64,000 nucleotides of DNA. Origin: Olsenella sp. An293. Its GTDB lineage: Bacteria > Actinomycetota > Coriobacteriia > Coriobacteriales > Atopobiaceae. The notes beneath the pieces are model-generated. The model was not told the DNA's origin and ran no database searches. It worked only from the letters and a program-made list of their open reading frames with translations. Positions 1,941 to 47,926 of this stretch are shown one piece after another; position 1 is the stretch's first letter; each line of letters opens with the position of its first letter. A program made the position numbers and the translations under genes. The stretch spans positions 62,001-126,000 of the forward strand of contig NZ_NFIT01000003.1 in NCBI RefSeq assembly GCF_002159495.1, written 5' to 3'.

Positions 1941-3890
1941 ATGAGAAAACGTTTCCTCGGTCTGCTCGGCGCCCTGTGCGCCCTGGCGTTGGCGGTGGGA
2001 CTGATGCCCGCCCGCGCACTTGCGGACGACGCCGCCCTCTACGTCGCCCTGGGCGACAGCGTCTCTGCGGGCTACGGGCTTTCTGAGGGGGAGGAGTCCT
2101 TCCCCGAGCTCGTCGCGCAGGAGCGCGGCTACGAGCTCACCAATCTCGCCTCGAACGACGGCGTCACCTCTGAGACGCTGCTCGCTCAGCTGGGAGACGA
2201 GAGCGTGGCAAGCGCCGACGTCATCACCATCACCGTGGGCGGCAACGACCTCATGGGCGCGCTGTACGCCTATCTTGCGGATGAGATCAACGCCGACCCC
2301 GTGCTGTCCGGCGCGCTTGGCAACGCGATGACGCCCGAGCTCGTCGAAAGCCTGCTGGCCAGCTCCGGCGGCGCGGCCGACCTCACCCTCGTCAACATGC
2401 TCAAGGGCCTGCTCGCTGGGTTCCCCGCCTCCGAGCAGGCGACCGAGGCCCTCGCTGAGCTCGCGACCAACGTGGGCACGGCCATCACCGCGATCAAGAC
2501 GGCGAACCCCGACGCCACGATCGTCCTCGTGAACCAGTACAACCCCTACGGCAGCCTCGCCGTCGAGGAGCTCGAGGACGTCGTCGCCGCCTTCGAGCAG
2601 GGCGTTCAGGCCATGAACCAGGGCTTCTCGGCCGTCGAGGCCGCCGGATGTCTCGTGGCGGACGCGCACGGCGCCTTCGAGGGCGCCGAGTCCAACCCCT
2701 GCAACGCGGCGGTCGTGGACCTGAAGACGGTCAACCTCGACTTCCATCCCAACGCCTACGGCCACCAGCTCATCGCCCAGGCGGTCGCGGACGTGCTGCC
2801 CGAGACACCCGAGGAGCCCGGCGACGTCGACTCCGACTGGGTCTCCGTCGTCGAGGGTCTCGTCGCCACCGAGGCGGGCCATGACTACAGCGTGGACCTG
2901 TGGGGCGACACCGTGGTGCCCTCCCTCGTGTTCCAGGCCGTCGCCGGTCGTGACGTGGACGTGCGCCTCAACGTGTCCCCGGGCGTCTCCTGGACCTTCA
3001 ACGGCACCGACGTCCCGACCGACGCCAAGCTCTCCGACCTCGACCTTGCCGTGACGCTCGGCACCGGGACCGTGCCCGAGGGCGCGCTCTCGCTCGTCGG
3101 CGGCCTCTTTGGCTACGTCGAGCTCACGATCGCCCACGACGGGGCCTTCGGCTTCCCCATGACCCTCGAGGCCGACCTGGGGCTTCCCGCGGGCGGCATC
3201 TACGCCAACGCGTATCGCTACGACGAGGGCGCCGGCATGCTGCGCTTCGAGGGCTCCTCGGTCGTGGCGCAGGACGGCACGGTCAGCATGACCGTCGACC
3301 ACGCCTCCGCCTGGGTGGTCACGTTTGACTCCGTCTCTCATGAGCTCACCTTCTCCGACGCCGCCGAGGGCGAGTGGTACTCCGAGCCCGTCCGCTGGAT
3401 GTACTTCAACGGCTTCATGAACGGGTATCCCGACGGCACCTTCGGCATCGGCCGCACGATCACCCGCGCCGAGGCAGCGTCGGTGCTCTACAACCTCGCC
3501 GGCATGCCCGCCGTCGAGGTCGGCGAGCTTCCCGCCGACGTCGAGGAGGGCGAGTGGTACACCGCGCCGATCGCCTGGTCGCTCCAGACCGGCGTCTTCA
3601 AGGGCAACGGCGACGGCTCCTTCGGACTCTTCTCGGCGCTCTCTCGCGAGCAGGCCGCCTGCATCCTGTTCAACTCCGCCCAGGCGGCAGGCGAGGACGT
3701 CTCCGCCCGCGCCGACCTCACCGCGTTCGGCGACGCCGACACCCTCTCTGCCTGGGCCGCCGACGCCATGAGCTGGGCCGTCTCCGAGGGCATCTTCAGC
3801 GGCAGCGGCGAGGGCAACCTCGAGCCCGGGCGCAGCATCACCCGCGCCGAGTTTGCCACGATCCTCATGAACCAGAGGCTCGCCGGCTAG
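1941..3890 (+). CDS. Secreted GDSL/SGNH esterase with three SLH repeats
   Basis: 649 residues from ATG 1941, chosen over ATG 1935 because AAGGGA at 1928-1933 is then correctly spaced. An N-terminal signal peptide (MRKRF, hydrophobic core, ending PARALADD) is followed by an SGNH hydrolase domain: block I GDSVSAGYG with nucleophile Ser about 40, block III VGGNDL near 100, and the Asp/His block DFHPNAYGH near 267-275. A beta-rich linker follows (about 290-460). The C-terminus has three S-layer-homology repeats (about 466-649; WYSEPVRWMYFNGFMNGYPD, GTFGIGRTITRAEAASVLY and two diverged copies), which bind secondary cell-wall polymers. Inferred role: wall-anchored esterase or lipase; the substrate is unknown. 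Confidence 0.87.
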   Translation: MRKRFLGLLGALCALALAVGLMPARALADDAALYVALGDSVSAGYGLSEGEESFPELVAQERGYELTNLASNDGVTSETLLAQLGDESVASADVITITVGGNDLMGALYAYLADEINADPVLSGALGNAMTPELVESLLASSGGAADLTLVNMLKGLLAGFPASEQATEALAELATNVGTAITAIKTANPDATIVLVNQYNPYGSLAVEELEDVVAAFEQGVQAMNQGFSAVEAAGCLVADAHGAFEGAESNPCNAAVVDLKTVNLDFHPNAYGHQLIAQAVADVLPETPEEPGDVDSDWVSVVEGLVATEAGHDYSVDLWGDTVVPSLVFQAVAGRDVDVRLNVSPGVSWTFNGTDVPTDAKLSDLDLAVTLGTGTVPEGALSLVGGLFGYVELTIAHDGAFGFPMTLEADLGLPAGGIYANAYRYDEGAGMLRFEGSSVVAQDGTVSMTVDHASAWVVTFDSVSHELTFSDAAEGEWYSEPVRWMYFNGFMNGYPDGTFGIGRTITRAEAASVLYNLAGMPAVEVGELPADVEEGEWYTAPIAWSLQTGVFKGNGDGSFGLFSALSREQAACILFNSAQAAGEDVSARADLTAFGDADTLSAWAADAMSWAVSEGIFSGSGEGNLEPGRSITRAEFATILMNQRLAG

Positions 3891-10844: not shown

Positions 10845-10931
10845 TTGACAATCACGTCAGGTTATATTGTCAACCCGTCATGAGGGTTGACAATATAACC
10901 TGACGTGATTGTCAAATGACGTGATTGTCAA
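10845..10931. repeat. Perfect 32-bp inverted repeat plus a third half-copy
   Basis: Arms 10845-10876 and 10884-10915 are perfect reverse complements around the 7-base loop GTCATGA. Each contains the same 29-bp unit as at 185-248. A 15-bp end, TGACGTGATTGTCAA, at 10901-10915 is repeated directly at 10917-10931, stopping two bases before the AAAGGAA ribosome site of pepP. It is not followed by a T-run. Candidate operator or small palindromic mobile element. Confidence 0.92.
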
Positions 10932-12072: not shown

Positions 12073-12176
12073 GAGAAGAACCTTGCTTTGGGGCCCGTCG
12101 GGCGTGTCTCCGTGCGAAGAGGACTGTTTGAGCGCGGGGACACGCCCGACGGCTTTGCCGCCGCACGTTCTTCTCG
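12073..12176. repeat. Hairpin element with conserved core (copy C)
   Basis: Arms CCGTCGGGCGTGTC (12095-12108) and GACACGCCCGACGG (12139-12152) enclose TCCGTGCGAA-GAGGACTGTTTGAGC. The core GAGGACTGT[CT]TGAGC recurs in both elements at 46251-46459, while these stems are unrelated in sequence. A second outer pair, GAGAAGAAC (12073-12081) and GTTCTTCTC (12168-12176), encloses it. It lies downstream of pepP. Confidence 0.75.
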
Positions 12177-12195
12177 CCCGTTGAGCGGGGAAATG

Positions 12196-23774: not shown

Positions 23775-23938
23775 GCGCCCCGGCCTCCCGCATCTCTCCG
23801 TGCTCACCGGACCCCGCCGCGTAGGGGCAACGCGCCCGCCTCCCTGCTCACTGCTTCGCAGAAATCGCGGGAGGCGGGCGCGTTGCCCCTACGCTGCTTC
23901 GCAGAAATCGCCGGAGAGATGCGGGAGGCCCGGGGCGC
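23775..23938. repeat. Nested palindromes: one hairpin element inside another
   Basis: Outer arms 23775-23800 and 23912-23938 pair with a single-base bulge. Inner arms 23819-23844 and 23869-23894 are a perfect 26-bp inverted repeat. The inner loop (23845-23868) reads TGCTCA then CTGCTTCGCAGAAATCGC. The same TGCTCAC directly follows the left outer arm (23801-23807) and the same TGCTTCGCAGAAATCGC directly precedes the right outer arm (to 23911). So both elements share a core while their arms differ, and the inner one interrupts the outer one's core. Confidence 0.85.
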
Positions 23939-44539: not shown

Positions 44540-44577
44540 TCTTGAGGCTCTTGGGCCGAGAAGGGCGAGAAGGTGCG

Positions 44578-44931
44578 AGGTGGGCCTATAAGCCGGGTTC
44601 TGTCGTGGGCGGCCATTTATCTACTGCGGCTGTCACCAGCCGCCTCTAGCGCGCAACCCGAGCGCAGTGCGGGCCACACCATGGCGCTCCTATTTGCGTT
44701 TGCTCCGGATGGGGCTTGCCAAGCCGCCGTGTTGCCACGACGCTGGTGGTCTCTTACACCACCGTTTCAGCTTTTCCCTCAACGGGCCAGGCCCGCCAGC
44801 GGGAGTCTTCTTTTCTGCGGCGCTTTCCGTCGGGTCACCCCGCCCGGCCGTTAGCCGGCATCCTGCCCTGTGGAGCCCGGACTTTCCTCATGGCGCTTTC
44901 GCGCCCCGCGGTCGCCTGGCCCACCTCGCGC
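44578..44931 (-). ncRNA. rnpB: RNase P RNA (bacterial type A)
   Basis: Read on the minus strand, the 5' end GAGGTGGGCCAGGCGACCGC is followed by the conserved GAGGAAAGTCCGGGCTCCAC, GGCAGGATGCCGGCTAACGG, GAGGGAAAAGCTGAAACGG with GGTGTAAGAGACCACC, CAAATAGGAGCGCC and GTAGATAAATGGCCGCCCAC, ending with ACAGAACCCGGCTTATAGG and CCCACCTC, which pairs with the 5' end. This is the catalytic RNA that matures tRNA 5' ends. Length about 354 nt; exact ends are inferred from the terminal stem. Confidence 0.95.
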
Positions 44932-45584: not shown

Positions 45585-46222
45585 CGGGGGAGTCCTATCG
45601 CACGCCGCGCGTCGGCGTCGAGGCCGTGGGCGAGTTCGAGGACCGTCGCAGCCGCTTCATCGCGCAGCTTGCCCACGTGGAGAGCGAGAAGGACGCGGAG
45701 GCCTTCATCGAGCAGGTGCGCTCGCGCCATCACGACGCGCGCCACAACGTCCCCGCCTGGATCCTCGCGGACGGCCGCGAGCGCTGCTCCGACGACGGCG
45801 AGCCCAGCCGGACCTCGGGGATGCCCACGCTCGAGGTCCTGCGCGGCGCGGGCCTGGCCAACGTCTGCTGCGTGGTCACGCGCTACTTCGGCGGGACGCT
45901 GCTGGGCCCCGGCGGCCTCGTGCGCGCCTACACCGCCGCCACCCAGGCAGCCGTCGAGGCGGCCGAGACAGACGACAAGATCGTCGAGATGACGCTGGTG
46001 ACGCCGGTCACCGTGCAGCTGCCCTACGCCCTCTACGACCGCGTGACCCGCCTCGCGACGAATGCCGGCGGAAAGGTGGCCGACTCGCTCTTTGCCGAGG
46101 ACGTGCAGCTCTCCCTGGTCTTTCGCACCGGGGAGGAGGCACCCTTCGTCGCCGCCGCCCGCGAGCTCGCCAACGGTGACGACATCGCCCGCGCGCACGA
46201 GCCCCGCTTCGCGGAGTTCTAG
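45581..46222 (+). CDS. yigZ: YigZ/IMPACT family protein
   Basis: 213 residues, GTG overlapping the EIIA stop. UPF0029 N-terminal domain: EFEDRRSRFIAQLAHVESEKDAEAFIEQVRSRHHDARHNVPAWIL, DDGEPSRTSGMPTLEVLRGAGLANVCCVVTRYFGGTLLGPGGLVRAY, then the EF-G-V-like domain. Function in bacteria is unsettled; eukaryotic IMPACT regulates translation. Confidence 0.93.
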   Translation: MTGESYRTPRVGVEAVGEFEDRRSRFIAQLAHVESEKDAEAFIEQVRSRHHDARHNVPAWILADGRERCSDDGEPSRTSGMPTLEVLRGAGLANVCCVVTRYFGGTLLGPGGLVRAYTAATQAAVEAAETDDKIVEMTLVTPVTVQLPYALYDRVTRLATNAGGKVADSLFAEDVQLSLVFRTGEEAPFVAAARELANGDDIARAHEPRFAEF

Positions 46223-46250
46223 TCTCAACTTCCTCCGACCCGACTCGCCC

Positions 46251-46330
46251 CGTCGGGCAACGTCCGGCGCTCAGACAGTCCTCGCCGCAGAAGGCGCGGC
46301 TGCGGAACTCGCGGCGGACGTTGCCCGCCG
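46251..46330. repeat. Hairpin element with conserved core (copy A)
   Basis: Stems 46251-46266 and 46315-46330 (one mismatch) enclose a 48-base core. On the minus strand the core reads AGTTCCGCAG, an inner hairpin CCGCAG/CTGCGG, then GCGAGGACTGTCTGAGC. Copy B has the same core on the opposite strand but different stems. Confidence 0.9.
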
Positions 46331-46366
46331 GGGCTTGGGCGCTGCGGCTAGAGTCGGCCGAGACAA

Positions 46367-46459
46367 GGGTCGCCCCCGGGCTTGTCCCGCGCGCAGTTCC
46401 GCAGCCGCGCCTTCTGCGGCGAGGACTGTCTGAGCACGGGGCAAGCCCGGGGGCGACCC
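46367..46459. repeat. Hairpin element with conserved core (copy B)
   Basis: 23-bp stems 46367-46389 and 46437-46459 (one mismatch) enclose, on the plus strand, AGTTCCGCAG, the inner hairpin and GCGAGGACTGTCTGAGC, identical to copy A over about 41 bases. Located between the convergent yigZ and pepC genes; no T-run. Confidence 0.9.
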
Positions 46460-46474
46460 ATGGGGTGCGTATGT

Positions 46475-47926
46475 CTACAGCCGCGGCGCGAGCGCGAGGC
46501 CTACGGTGGTCCAGGGGTCGACCTCCTCGACGGGGGCGTTGTCCCAGAGGTCGAGCAGGTCCGCGGGCACGAACTCGCGGCGCACGACGACCTCGCCGCC
46601 GTAGGTGCGGAACCACTCGGCGCTCGCCACGAGGTAGCCGCCCTTGCAGGCGTCCTCGCCCCAGCTGTTCTCGATGCGCCAGGCCACCGGACGGCAGTCG
46701 GCGCCCAGCTCGACGCCCTGGAAGGTCATCGCGTGGGTGTTGCGCGTCTCGTGCGCGTCGATCATCTCGGCGCGGTCCATGGAGAGGTCGACGCCAAAGA
46801 GTCCCTCGTAGTCCATCGTGTCGCACGCGAGCACGCCGGGGAAGTCCTCGATCTTGCGCGGGAACTGCTGGCCCACGTCGCACGCCATCTCGCAAGGCAC
46901 GCCGGCGCGAAGCGACGCCACGGCGGCGTCCTCGAGCGCCTCGACGGGCACGTTGAGCATCTTGAGAGGCGTGCCGCCGGCCATGGTGTCGGAGAAGCGG
47001 CGGTGGAAGACGTGGCCGAAGGGGCGGGTCTCGCCGGGCATGCTGACGAGCTGCACGTAGTCGCTCGGGTCGAGGGGCACGTAGCGCTCGGCGAACTCGC
47101 GCGGCGTGATGCCGCGGTCCACGAGGAGCCGCCGCGGCGCGTCCTTCTCGCATGCCGGGCGGTCGTCACCGGACTGCTCCACGAGCTGGGAGGCCTTGAT
47201 GCGGCAGTTCTTGCCCACGGGGACCTCGAGGTCAAAGGTCAGCGGCGGCTCGCCGAGGCACACGGAGAGGACGCGGTGGCAGTCGGCGACCATGCCCTCC
47301 TTGGCCTCGCGCAGGTCTGCAACGTCGGCGCCCTCGGCCGCGAGGCGGCGCAGCTCCATCGCGCTCTTGTGGAAGAGGCGCTCGAGCTGGGCGTTCATCT
47401 GGTCGGCGTCCTTGGTGCAAGCGCTCTCGGGCATGACGTCCTTGGGCACGAGGCCCCACTTGCGGATGATGTTCATAGCGGCGGGGTAGTAGTTGCCGTC
47501 GCCCATGCAGTGGCCAAGAAGCCCCGAGACCTCGCGGGAGTCGAGCGGCAGCGCGGCGGTCTCGATGACGTACTCGAGACCCACGTTGAACTTCTCGAGC
47601 TTGTCGTAGAAGAAGCCGAAGGCCTGGGAGAACTCGAAGTCGTCGACGTCGAGCAGGTCCATCGTGGCGGCGCGCGCCACGTTGAAGGCGGCGAACATCC
47701 AGCAGCGGCCGGAGTGGCGCTGGTTGGTGACCTTGCCGGTGCGCGCGCGGCTCACGGCAAAGGTGTCGTGATAGGTGCGCATGGTCGTGACGTCGCGCGC
47801 GGCGGCGTGGACGTTCATCGAGGTGACGGCGTTTCTCGCCACGCGGTTGGCTCGGTCGGCGGAGAAGGTCGAGGTGAGCTCGTTAGCGCGCTCGGGCGCG
47901 ATCGCGCCGGGGGTGTAGTCGCTCAT
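46475..47926 (-). CDS. pepC: Aminopeptidase C (bleomycin hydrolase family, C1B), copy 1
   Basis: 483 residues. Papain-like triad: Cys 75 in QRHSGRCWMFAA, His in NTHAMTFQGV and Asn in RIENSWGED, with the intervening MDLLDVDDFEFSQAF and RRLLVDRG stretches typical of PepC. The family is a hexameric cytoplasmic aminopeptidase with broad specificity. It lies 10 bases downstream of a diverged paralogue and is probably co-transcribed with it. Confidence 0.94.
   Translation of the reverse strand: MSDYTPGAIAPERANELTSTFSADRANRVARNAVTSMNVHAAARDVTTMRTYHDTFAVSRARTGKVTNQRHSGRCWMFAAFNVARAATMDLLDVDDFEFSQAFGFFYDKLEKFNVGLEYVIETAALPLDSREVSGLLGHCMGDGNYYPAAMNIIRKWGLVPKDVMPESACTKDADQMNAQLERLFHKSAMELRRLAAEGADVADLREAKEGMVADCHRVLSVCLGEPPLTFDLEVPVGKNCRIKASQLVEQSGDDRPACEKDAPRRLLVDRGITPREFAERYVPLDPSDYVQLVSMPGETRPFGHVFHRRFSDTMAGGTPLKMLNVPVEALEDAAVASLRAGVPCEMACDVGQQFPRKIEDFPGVLACDTMDYEGLFGVDLSMDRAEMIDAHETRNTHAMTFQGVELGADCRPVAWRIENSWGEDACKGGYLVASAEWFRTYGGEVVVRREFVPADLLDLWDNAPVEEVDPWTTVGLALAPRL

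Follow-up and report, generated by a model that had tools for sequence, protein, structure and literature searches.

A dispersed palindromic element of bacterial genomes with a conserved internal loop and paired, locus-specific arms that may be rewritten by template switching

In the window, that is, the whole 64,000-nucleotide stretch of Olsenella sp. An293 DNA analysed here, two hairpin elements lie side by side between a plus-strand YigZ-like gene with UPF0029 and DUF1949 domains, which ends at 46222, and a minus-strand gene for a C1-type peptidase (46475-47926). Element A occupies 46247-46334 on the minus strand, where arms at 46247-46270 and 46311-46334 (92% complementary) flank a core holding the S2 strand GCGAGGACTGTCTGAGC (46269-46285, minus) and the S1 strand AGTTCCGCAG (46300-46309, minus). 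Element B occupies 46364-46462 on the plus strand, and its arms at 46364-46396 and 46430-46462 (88% complementary) flank the same S1 (46395-46404, plus) and S2 (46419-46435, plus) strands. The first-pass annotation had described an exact 41-nt core, AGTTCCGCAG-CCGCGCCTTCTGCGG-CGAGGACTGTCTGAGC, common to A and B in opposite orientation and within unlike stems, and this was confirmed. Its statement that the outer stems are unrelated holds for the stems as such, which do differ between A and B, but not for the inner approximately 8 arm positions (weakly up to 12), which follow the family consensus AAGGTCCG. Immediately beyond the common 41 nt, the GAGTT of A corresponds to CAGTT in B, and two classes of S1 are therefore distinguished. 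The stretch holding A folds with -63.1 kcal/mol (z -4.55) and that holding B with -81.0 kcal/mol (z -7.36), and in the covariance model R1, built from 31 genus copies, A scores 81.9 bits at 46257-46324 and B 57.9 bits at 46379-46447. At the Rfam gathering score the window gives RNase P only (Bacterial RNase P class A RNA at 44573-44927, minus strand, 279.8 bits), and 16 further loci from several phyla give no match; the below-threshold hits at A and B are unrelated microRNA families and one antisense family. In the corresponding YigZ-like/peptidase gap of 19 genus genomes (L256-L274), long hairpins of several other families, for example CATATGGGACAG, GTGCAAAAGGGACAG and ACAAATCCGGAATTGAG, are present where A and B are missing.

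A third copy, C (12095-12152, plus strand), is flanked by an M24 peptidase gene and by a PTS gene, and had been said to show the same principle. It does have a third stem (arms 12095-12115 and 12132-12152) and an S2 strand with 3 mismatches (12117-12133), but the S1 strand and the inner hairpin are absent, and R1 gives it 18.6 bits. Genomes G015 and G016 carry a '- +' pair of elements with both strands kept at this site, S1 and inner hairpin included, and C thus seems to be a shortened copy. A further outer pair, CCGAGAAGAAC (12073-12082) and GTTCTTCTCG (12166-12178), surrounds C, which may on this ground lie inside a second palindrome. At 23778-23934 on the minus strand there are two palindromes, one in the other, with outer arms at 23778-23800 and 23912-23934, inner arms at 23816-23844 and 23869-23897, and remnants of the same core in each (TGCTCAC, GCTTCGCAGAAATCGC); found both by R1 (20.4 bits, E 0.0033, at 23833-23880) and as inverted repeats, the region is a probable decayed nested element, arranged as if one element had inserted within another. 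When only the window is searched for the 17-mer with at most 3 mismatches, 3 matches are found against 0.76 expected, a number reached in 7 of 100 shuffles and so not strongly above chance. Another hairpin family, TTGACAAT...ACCTGACG, is present at 185-248 and 10845-10915 of the window, with arms of 31-32 nt that are 97-100% complementary.

Over the whole genome, by contrast, the excess above chance is strong, and further copies, whose absence the first-pass annotation had regarded as evidence against its proposal, are abundant. The string GAGGACTGTYTGAGC occurs 13 times in the organism's own 2.31-Mb genome (reversed control, 0) and is present in 18 of the 40 genomes of the relatives search, its own included; the pattern GCGAGTT-N13..43-CTGTYTGAGC gives 18 copies in its own genome and is found in 30 of the 31 genus genomes, own again included, with a reversed control of 0 in all 31. 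The earlier observation is right, and wider than first noted. Draft genomes probably undercount the elements, because contigs of G026, the single genome of its genus, end inside long-armed copies (L061, L071, L072).

The most constant part of the element is a two-strand internal loop in which (G/C)AGUU faces CUGUYUGA, often adjoined by a second small loop, GCAG facing CGA, and this loop of about 25 nt is almost letter-for-letter constant in at least five bacterial phyla. The inner helix varies by matched changes, such as CTTGCCG/CGGCAAG, CTTGGCG/CGCCAAG, TTTTGC/GCAAA, CCGAG/CTCGG and others. When 15 pairs of the structure were named and scored over 31 copies, 93.3% of cells were paired versus a shuffled mean of 74.6%, none of 500 shuffles being as high, and changes on both sides were observed in 12 of the 15 pairs. 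The arms, with a median length of 26 bp in 154 genus elements, comprise from the fifth position 3,328 Watson-Crick pairs, 80 G.U, 58 A.C, 94 other mismatches and 29 gaps; beyond position 8 their sequence information is 0.1-0.5 bit, except at position 15, which is often G, while pairing is 76% at position 9 and 90-99% at positions 10-28. An alignment of 31 copies with 14 nt of arm on each side (A1) has no invariant column outside the core, and beyond 14 nt the arms reach at most 0.96 bit, at one position. Given such low information together with 90-99% pairing, a conserved core with largely unshared yet complementary arms is a measured property of the family. In G026 the locus-specific arms extend to about 150 paired positions, and in L030 they take up the gap between two genes.

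Reversal of the strand order, to S2-hairpin-S1, is common in other families and phyla, and this permuted core is found in Pseudomonadota, Nitrospirota, Bacteroidota, Patescibacteria and other Actinomycetota. Because exact patterns yielded most copies, part of the constancy seen in the searched letters follows from the method, and a search using one strand served as a check. This S2-only scan of genome contigs returned at least 120 stretches, the matches listed including Gallionella, Burkholderiales, Nitrospira, Porticoccaceae, Patescibacteria, Barnesiella and Adlercreutzia; among the 130 S2 matches listed, an S1 strand stands beside 116 (after S2 in 87, before it in 29) and in neither place in 14, S1 being present in 12% of random windows from the same loci. 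In 27 of the 32 genomes reached from the listed S2 loci the exact pattern CTGTYTGAGC-N2..32-CGAGTTCCGCAG occurs, with up to 27 copies and a control of 0. A phylum sample gave the permuted core in 12 of 198 genomes, in several of them as a single hit, at a frequency not above that of the control, and such single hits mean little because the reversed control itself hits 8 of the 198. Plasmids contain a match in 17 of 72,556 records, one of which covers 80% (Roseomonas, 84% identity, inside a transposase gene). An Ilyobacter (Fusobacteriota) plasmid has 11 partial matches, of which one was examined and folds the same way, and partial matches in Parabacteroides and an Aureibacter plasmid, one place examined in each, fold as core hairpins. 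On the Aureibacter plasmid (L537, 1501-2532) the core hairpin stands just before two tyrosine recombinase genes, a single case. Carriage by phages was rejected: partial matches occur in 69 of 50,697 phage records, with none covering 80% of the 36-nt core query, and viral contigs gave one stretch, which lacks S1. Partial matches in 5 of 5,426 E. coli genomes likewise include none covering 80% of that query.

How arms of unshared sequence stay paired can be followed at orthologous sites, where both arms alter in step. In a gene resembling IorA (POR_N, TPP_enzyme_C and ferredoxin domains), an element lies in frame in a linker in 16 of 21 parsed genomes, the other 6 of 27 loci being unparsed (G013, G019, G236, G007, G017, G021), and the insert length is divisible by 3 in 16 of 16 parsed. 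The 5 empty sites have a linker of 87 or 93 nt with no element and, by eye, no paired arms; thus the situation that the first-pass annotation had named as contrary to its idea, empty sites already containing both arms, was not seen there. Many of the filled copies are decaying, since the S2 strand is altered in 9 of 16. Among the 15 of the 16 that the pattern retained (all but G008), pairing holds at 326 of 390 arm positions, against a column-shuffle mean of 268 and maximum of 283 and at most 306 of 390 in 1000 trials of swapping whole arms. Because these orthologous arms differ widely and yet stay paired, pairing has been renewed after insertion. In the GltB gene, for which 17 of 29 loci were unparsed, two compensated pairs in the arm separate G016 from G006, and relatives are found in G013 and G024; GltB of G018 has no core, though it is 96-98% identical to G016 there. 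The GltB linker (L422-L450) bears hairpins of at least three families across species, in frame in the parsed genomes, and in G000 a hairpin similar to the TTGACAAT...ACCTGACG family takes the place of half the element. For one arm pair of element B, the window has T-A, G237 has T.G and G006 has C-G. Judged by eye from arms and inner hairpins, the core is flipped between genomes at the IorA site (G016) and at L001 and L012, and whole '- +' cassettes are inverted at four sites, namely C, L002, L290 and L292.

Neighbouring genes also contribute to the arms. Of 141 intergenic elements, 12 have an arm that overlaps a called gene by at least 4 nt, 11 of them on one side only. At eight loci, representing four independent sites, it extends 7-26 nt past the stop codon into the gene: L047 and L051 (one site), L232, L233, L300 and L313 (one site with the same gene end), L303, and L321, which is weak. 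Here the 3' end of the gene serves as one arm, and the arm on the far side of the core repeats it in inverted form; for example, 53 of 61 positions agree in L303 and, in L051, 30 of 31. These loci rest on an in-house gene caller seeded with three window genes. The earlier suggestion that the arms are copied from, or adapted to, each site therefore stands as regards adaptation, given the in-step changes of orthologues, and in part as regards copying, given the eight gene-end loci.

The related idea that insertion itself produced the arms, a single time, by inverted copying of the target, and that only decay has followed, would account for the match of arm ends to gene ends, for the very long, locus-specific arms of G026, and for the sites where one arm stands alone, L005 in G006 (without a core) and L294 in G018. 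The single arm in G006 could, however, be either a deletion scar or a pre-insertion state, and some empty sites (L005, L294) may be deletions, so that single-arm sites fit both readings. Arms that were only ever to decay should not differ as widely as those of the IorA orthologues while remaining paired, no target-site duplication accompanies the elements, and copying after insertion explains the same data. We therefore consider the making of inverted target copies at insertion, as first proposed, to be quite improbable.

Whether the structure is maintained as RNA or as DNA bears directly on its interpretation. RNA internal-loop motifs typically allow their two strands to come in either order. 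A structured RNA, the loop of which would bind a protein or ligand in transcripts while the pairing of the arms is upheld by selection on the RNA stem, would agree with the occurrence of the core strands in either order here, with a letter-for-letter loop flanked by covarying helices, with the T-A, T.G, C-G series in the arm of B, and with the excess of G.U over A.C mismatches of 66:29 in columns 5-24. Against this, gene orientation shows no preference: among 151 genus elements, 134 are intergenic, 10 inside called genes and 7 at locus edges, and the intergenic ones comprise 46 in sense with both neighbours, 60 against both, 28 between convergent genes and none between divergent genes, copies at orthologous sites being counted separately (as a baseline, 2 of the 24 window gaps of at least 80 nt are divergent). 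Cores flip in place, antisense copies exist inside GltB, and locus-specific arms reach about 150 paired positions. The G.U:A.C ratio is moreover 80:58 overall, 65:50 over 121 clusters, 39:29 in the S2-S1 forms and 3:4, near 1, in IorA, versus 33:0 when the same count is made on 18 tRNAs. The gene-orientation counts and this mild lean suggest upkeep mainly at the DNA level, and structured RNA as the main cause, one of two options named in the first-pass annotation, is in our judgement unlikely, although the 66:29 count leaves room for some strand-specific effect or RNA role. Ordinary intrinsic transcription terminators would be strong hairpins near gene ends, as these are, and A and B do lie between convergent genes, but four consecutive T after the arm are seen in 0 of 151 elements in the sense direction and in 1 of 151 in the other, and there are in-frame copies inside genes; this explanation was rejected, and we regard it as extremely improbable.

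Based on these findings, we propose, with somewhat better than even confidence, that A, B and C are representatives of a palindromic DNA element that is dispersed and non-coding, with arms that are rewritten by template switching and a core that is a putative recognition site. The observations to be accommodated are strands in either order around the hairpin, arms that change in step, both orientations at single sites, arms copied from genes, and empty sites. According to the available text of two papers, template switching between inverted repeats homogenises the arms and inverts the spacer (PMC8604942), and template switching both creates and repairs stems (PMC8794818). In the light of these descriptions, the in-step arms, the gene-end copies and the flips of cores and cassettes bear the marks of template switching (PMC8604942, PMC8794818), and we infer that this process produced the arm changes and inversions. 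During replication, the hairpin would cause the polymerase to switch template, and such a switch could copy one arm onto the other, pull flanking DNA into the palindrome and flip the core, which would keep the arms complementary without inheritance of any fixed arm sequence. The loop would serve as the recognition site of a putative protein that moves or maintains the element, its mobility being suggested by the presence and absence of elements. Some observations fit this proposal less well: the G.U over A.C excess of 66:29 in the solid part of the arm counts against template switching alone, which predicts no such lean; the gene-end support comes from only four independent sites, the weak L321 among them; and a near-identical core across phyla is unusual for a selfish element. 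No partner protein was found in the Y1/RAYT comparisons and among the ORFs near elements that were examined. The 588 ORFs near elements of L105-L224 include, by eye, no obvious shared neighbour gene, their largest clusters being translations of the repeat itself and the others common families. Neither clean excision nor target-site duplication was seen among 151 elements; a direct repeat of 2-5 nt at the arm ends occurs in 11 of the 151 versus 12.6 expected by swapping, although the arm ends may have moved by growth. On this count target-site duplication was rejected, and with outer arms that differ between copies and thus provide no shared terminal inverted repeats, the element does not fit a MITE of a DDE transposase.

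A Y1/HUH transposase of the RAYT type, which mobilises REP sequences, would be an obvious candidate for such a protein, since the elements are intergenic palindromes in close inverted pairs with none between divergent genes, and Y1_Tnp is present in 28 of the 31 genus genomes. The number of elements is, however, unrelated to that of Y1 genes (rho 0.05, p 0.77); G005 has 9 copies and no Y1 was found in it, and nine genomes of other phyla, mostly drafts, have 2-22 copies and no Y1 match. Searches by tblastn for RAYT relatives in the element loci examined found none, the Y1 loci from other-phylum genomes contain no permuted core, and no conserved foot tetranucleotide exists outside the core. RAYT genes have here other hairpins upstream, several of the GGGACAG type, and GCGAGTT near RAYT genes is, by eye, the end of the neighbouring gene. 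With no core beside the RAYT loci examined and no correlation of numbers, the RAYT link is largely refuted, and REP sequences mobilised by RAYT are a very unlikely identity for the element.

The arrangement of the copies in pairs offers a further view of possible mobility. All 20 close pairs found in the genus have the '- +' arrangement, their cores 59-106 bp apart, some of the pairs being orthologues of each other. In L105-L224, neighbouring opposite pairs are 12 times '- +', 235-1,663 bp apart, and never '+ -', with one further pair '- -', and 8 of the 12 enclose an ORF of at least 80 aa. The L153 pair encloses the host gene for formiminotransferase-cyclodeaminase, and each of the other seven (L120, L128, L134, L157, L201, L203, L222) surrounds a single gene. 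Two of these genes strongly match candidate defence families in PADLOC, one coding for a RelA/SpoT protein (PDC-S33, E 3e-104) and one for a second protein (PDC-S67, E 2e-68). The remaining ORFs in these seven loci include an Mrr_N protein, an 8xMP membrane protein, a DUF2971 match just under the cut-off and others with no match; records of Gallionellales, Gallionellaceae, Sideroxydans and Ferrigenium account for four of the seven loci. Inside the gene-bearing outward pairs of some betaproteobacteria no transposase was seen. Not every neighbouring pair is '- +'. In Barnesiella, G269 and a Patescibacterium, successive copies often have a common orientation, and the genes scanned there are unremarkable. 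In Barnesiella (G248), neighbours at distances of 0.7-15 kb are mostly same-way, with one '+ -'; L546, L550, L553 and L554 are also same-way, and L555 is '+ -'. A second hairpin, TTGGTTACTTT...AAAGTAAC, follows the core after approximately 77-110 bp in betaproteobacteria, Ilyobacter and Parabacteroides (L535-L536 included). A more far-reaching, and in our opinion rather doubtful, extension would be a mobile system common to several phyla and recognisable only by its hairpin, in which a putative enzyme would recognise the AGUU/CUGUYUGA loop once single-strand DNA has folded and would mobilise units with an outward-facing copy at either end. If outward pairs bound cassettes, they would provide a route for the travel of single defence genes.

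Apart from the question of mobility, a constant loop of about 25 nt amid rewritten surroundings in at least five phyla implies a strong, as yet unnamed recognition event. The elements form natural sets of orthologous sites, filled, empty and inverted, in which the growth of palindromes can be traced in both coding and non-coding DNA, and they carry a warning that near-perfect covariation in dispersed hairpins need not indicate a functional RNA.

The element is best read as one of the broad kind that includes REP sequences, MITEs and the palindromes of Rickettsia, and it differs from each of them in particular features. With REP, BIME and REPIN sequences, as characterised in the available text of PMC6006769, it shares short intergenic many-copy palindromes in inverted pairs that are absent between divergent genes. 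However, it keeps an internal loop rather than a stem or a foot tetranucleotide, its arms are unshared, and it has no link with Y1_Tnp. Rickettsia palindromic elements (RPE) are palindromes found in frame in protein-coding genes and between genes. Compared by description, they resemble the in-frame palindromes inside IorA, GltB and a DEAD helicase gene here, whereas the present element is seen in many phyla and has unshared arms. The attC sites of integrons are folded hairpins with few kept positions and variable stems; by this description they are alike in both respects, but the close pairs of the present element are inverted. MITEs and enterobacterial RU elements are likewise small, non-coding and dispersed, and sometimes lie within genes according to the available text of PMC2759123, but the present element has neither a target-site duplication nor a fixed terminal repeat. 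Template-switch (quasi-palindrome) mutation resembles it in the homogenisation of arms and the inversion of the spacer, but is described, in the available text of PMC8604942 and PMC8794818, for scattered inverted repeats and RNA genes, and would here act around one dispersed conserved core. Literature searches of the PMC library by core or tail strings returned no matching description. What is known is the broad class of dispersed bacterial palindromes, and what appears to be new is the combination of a kept internal loop with rewritten arms.
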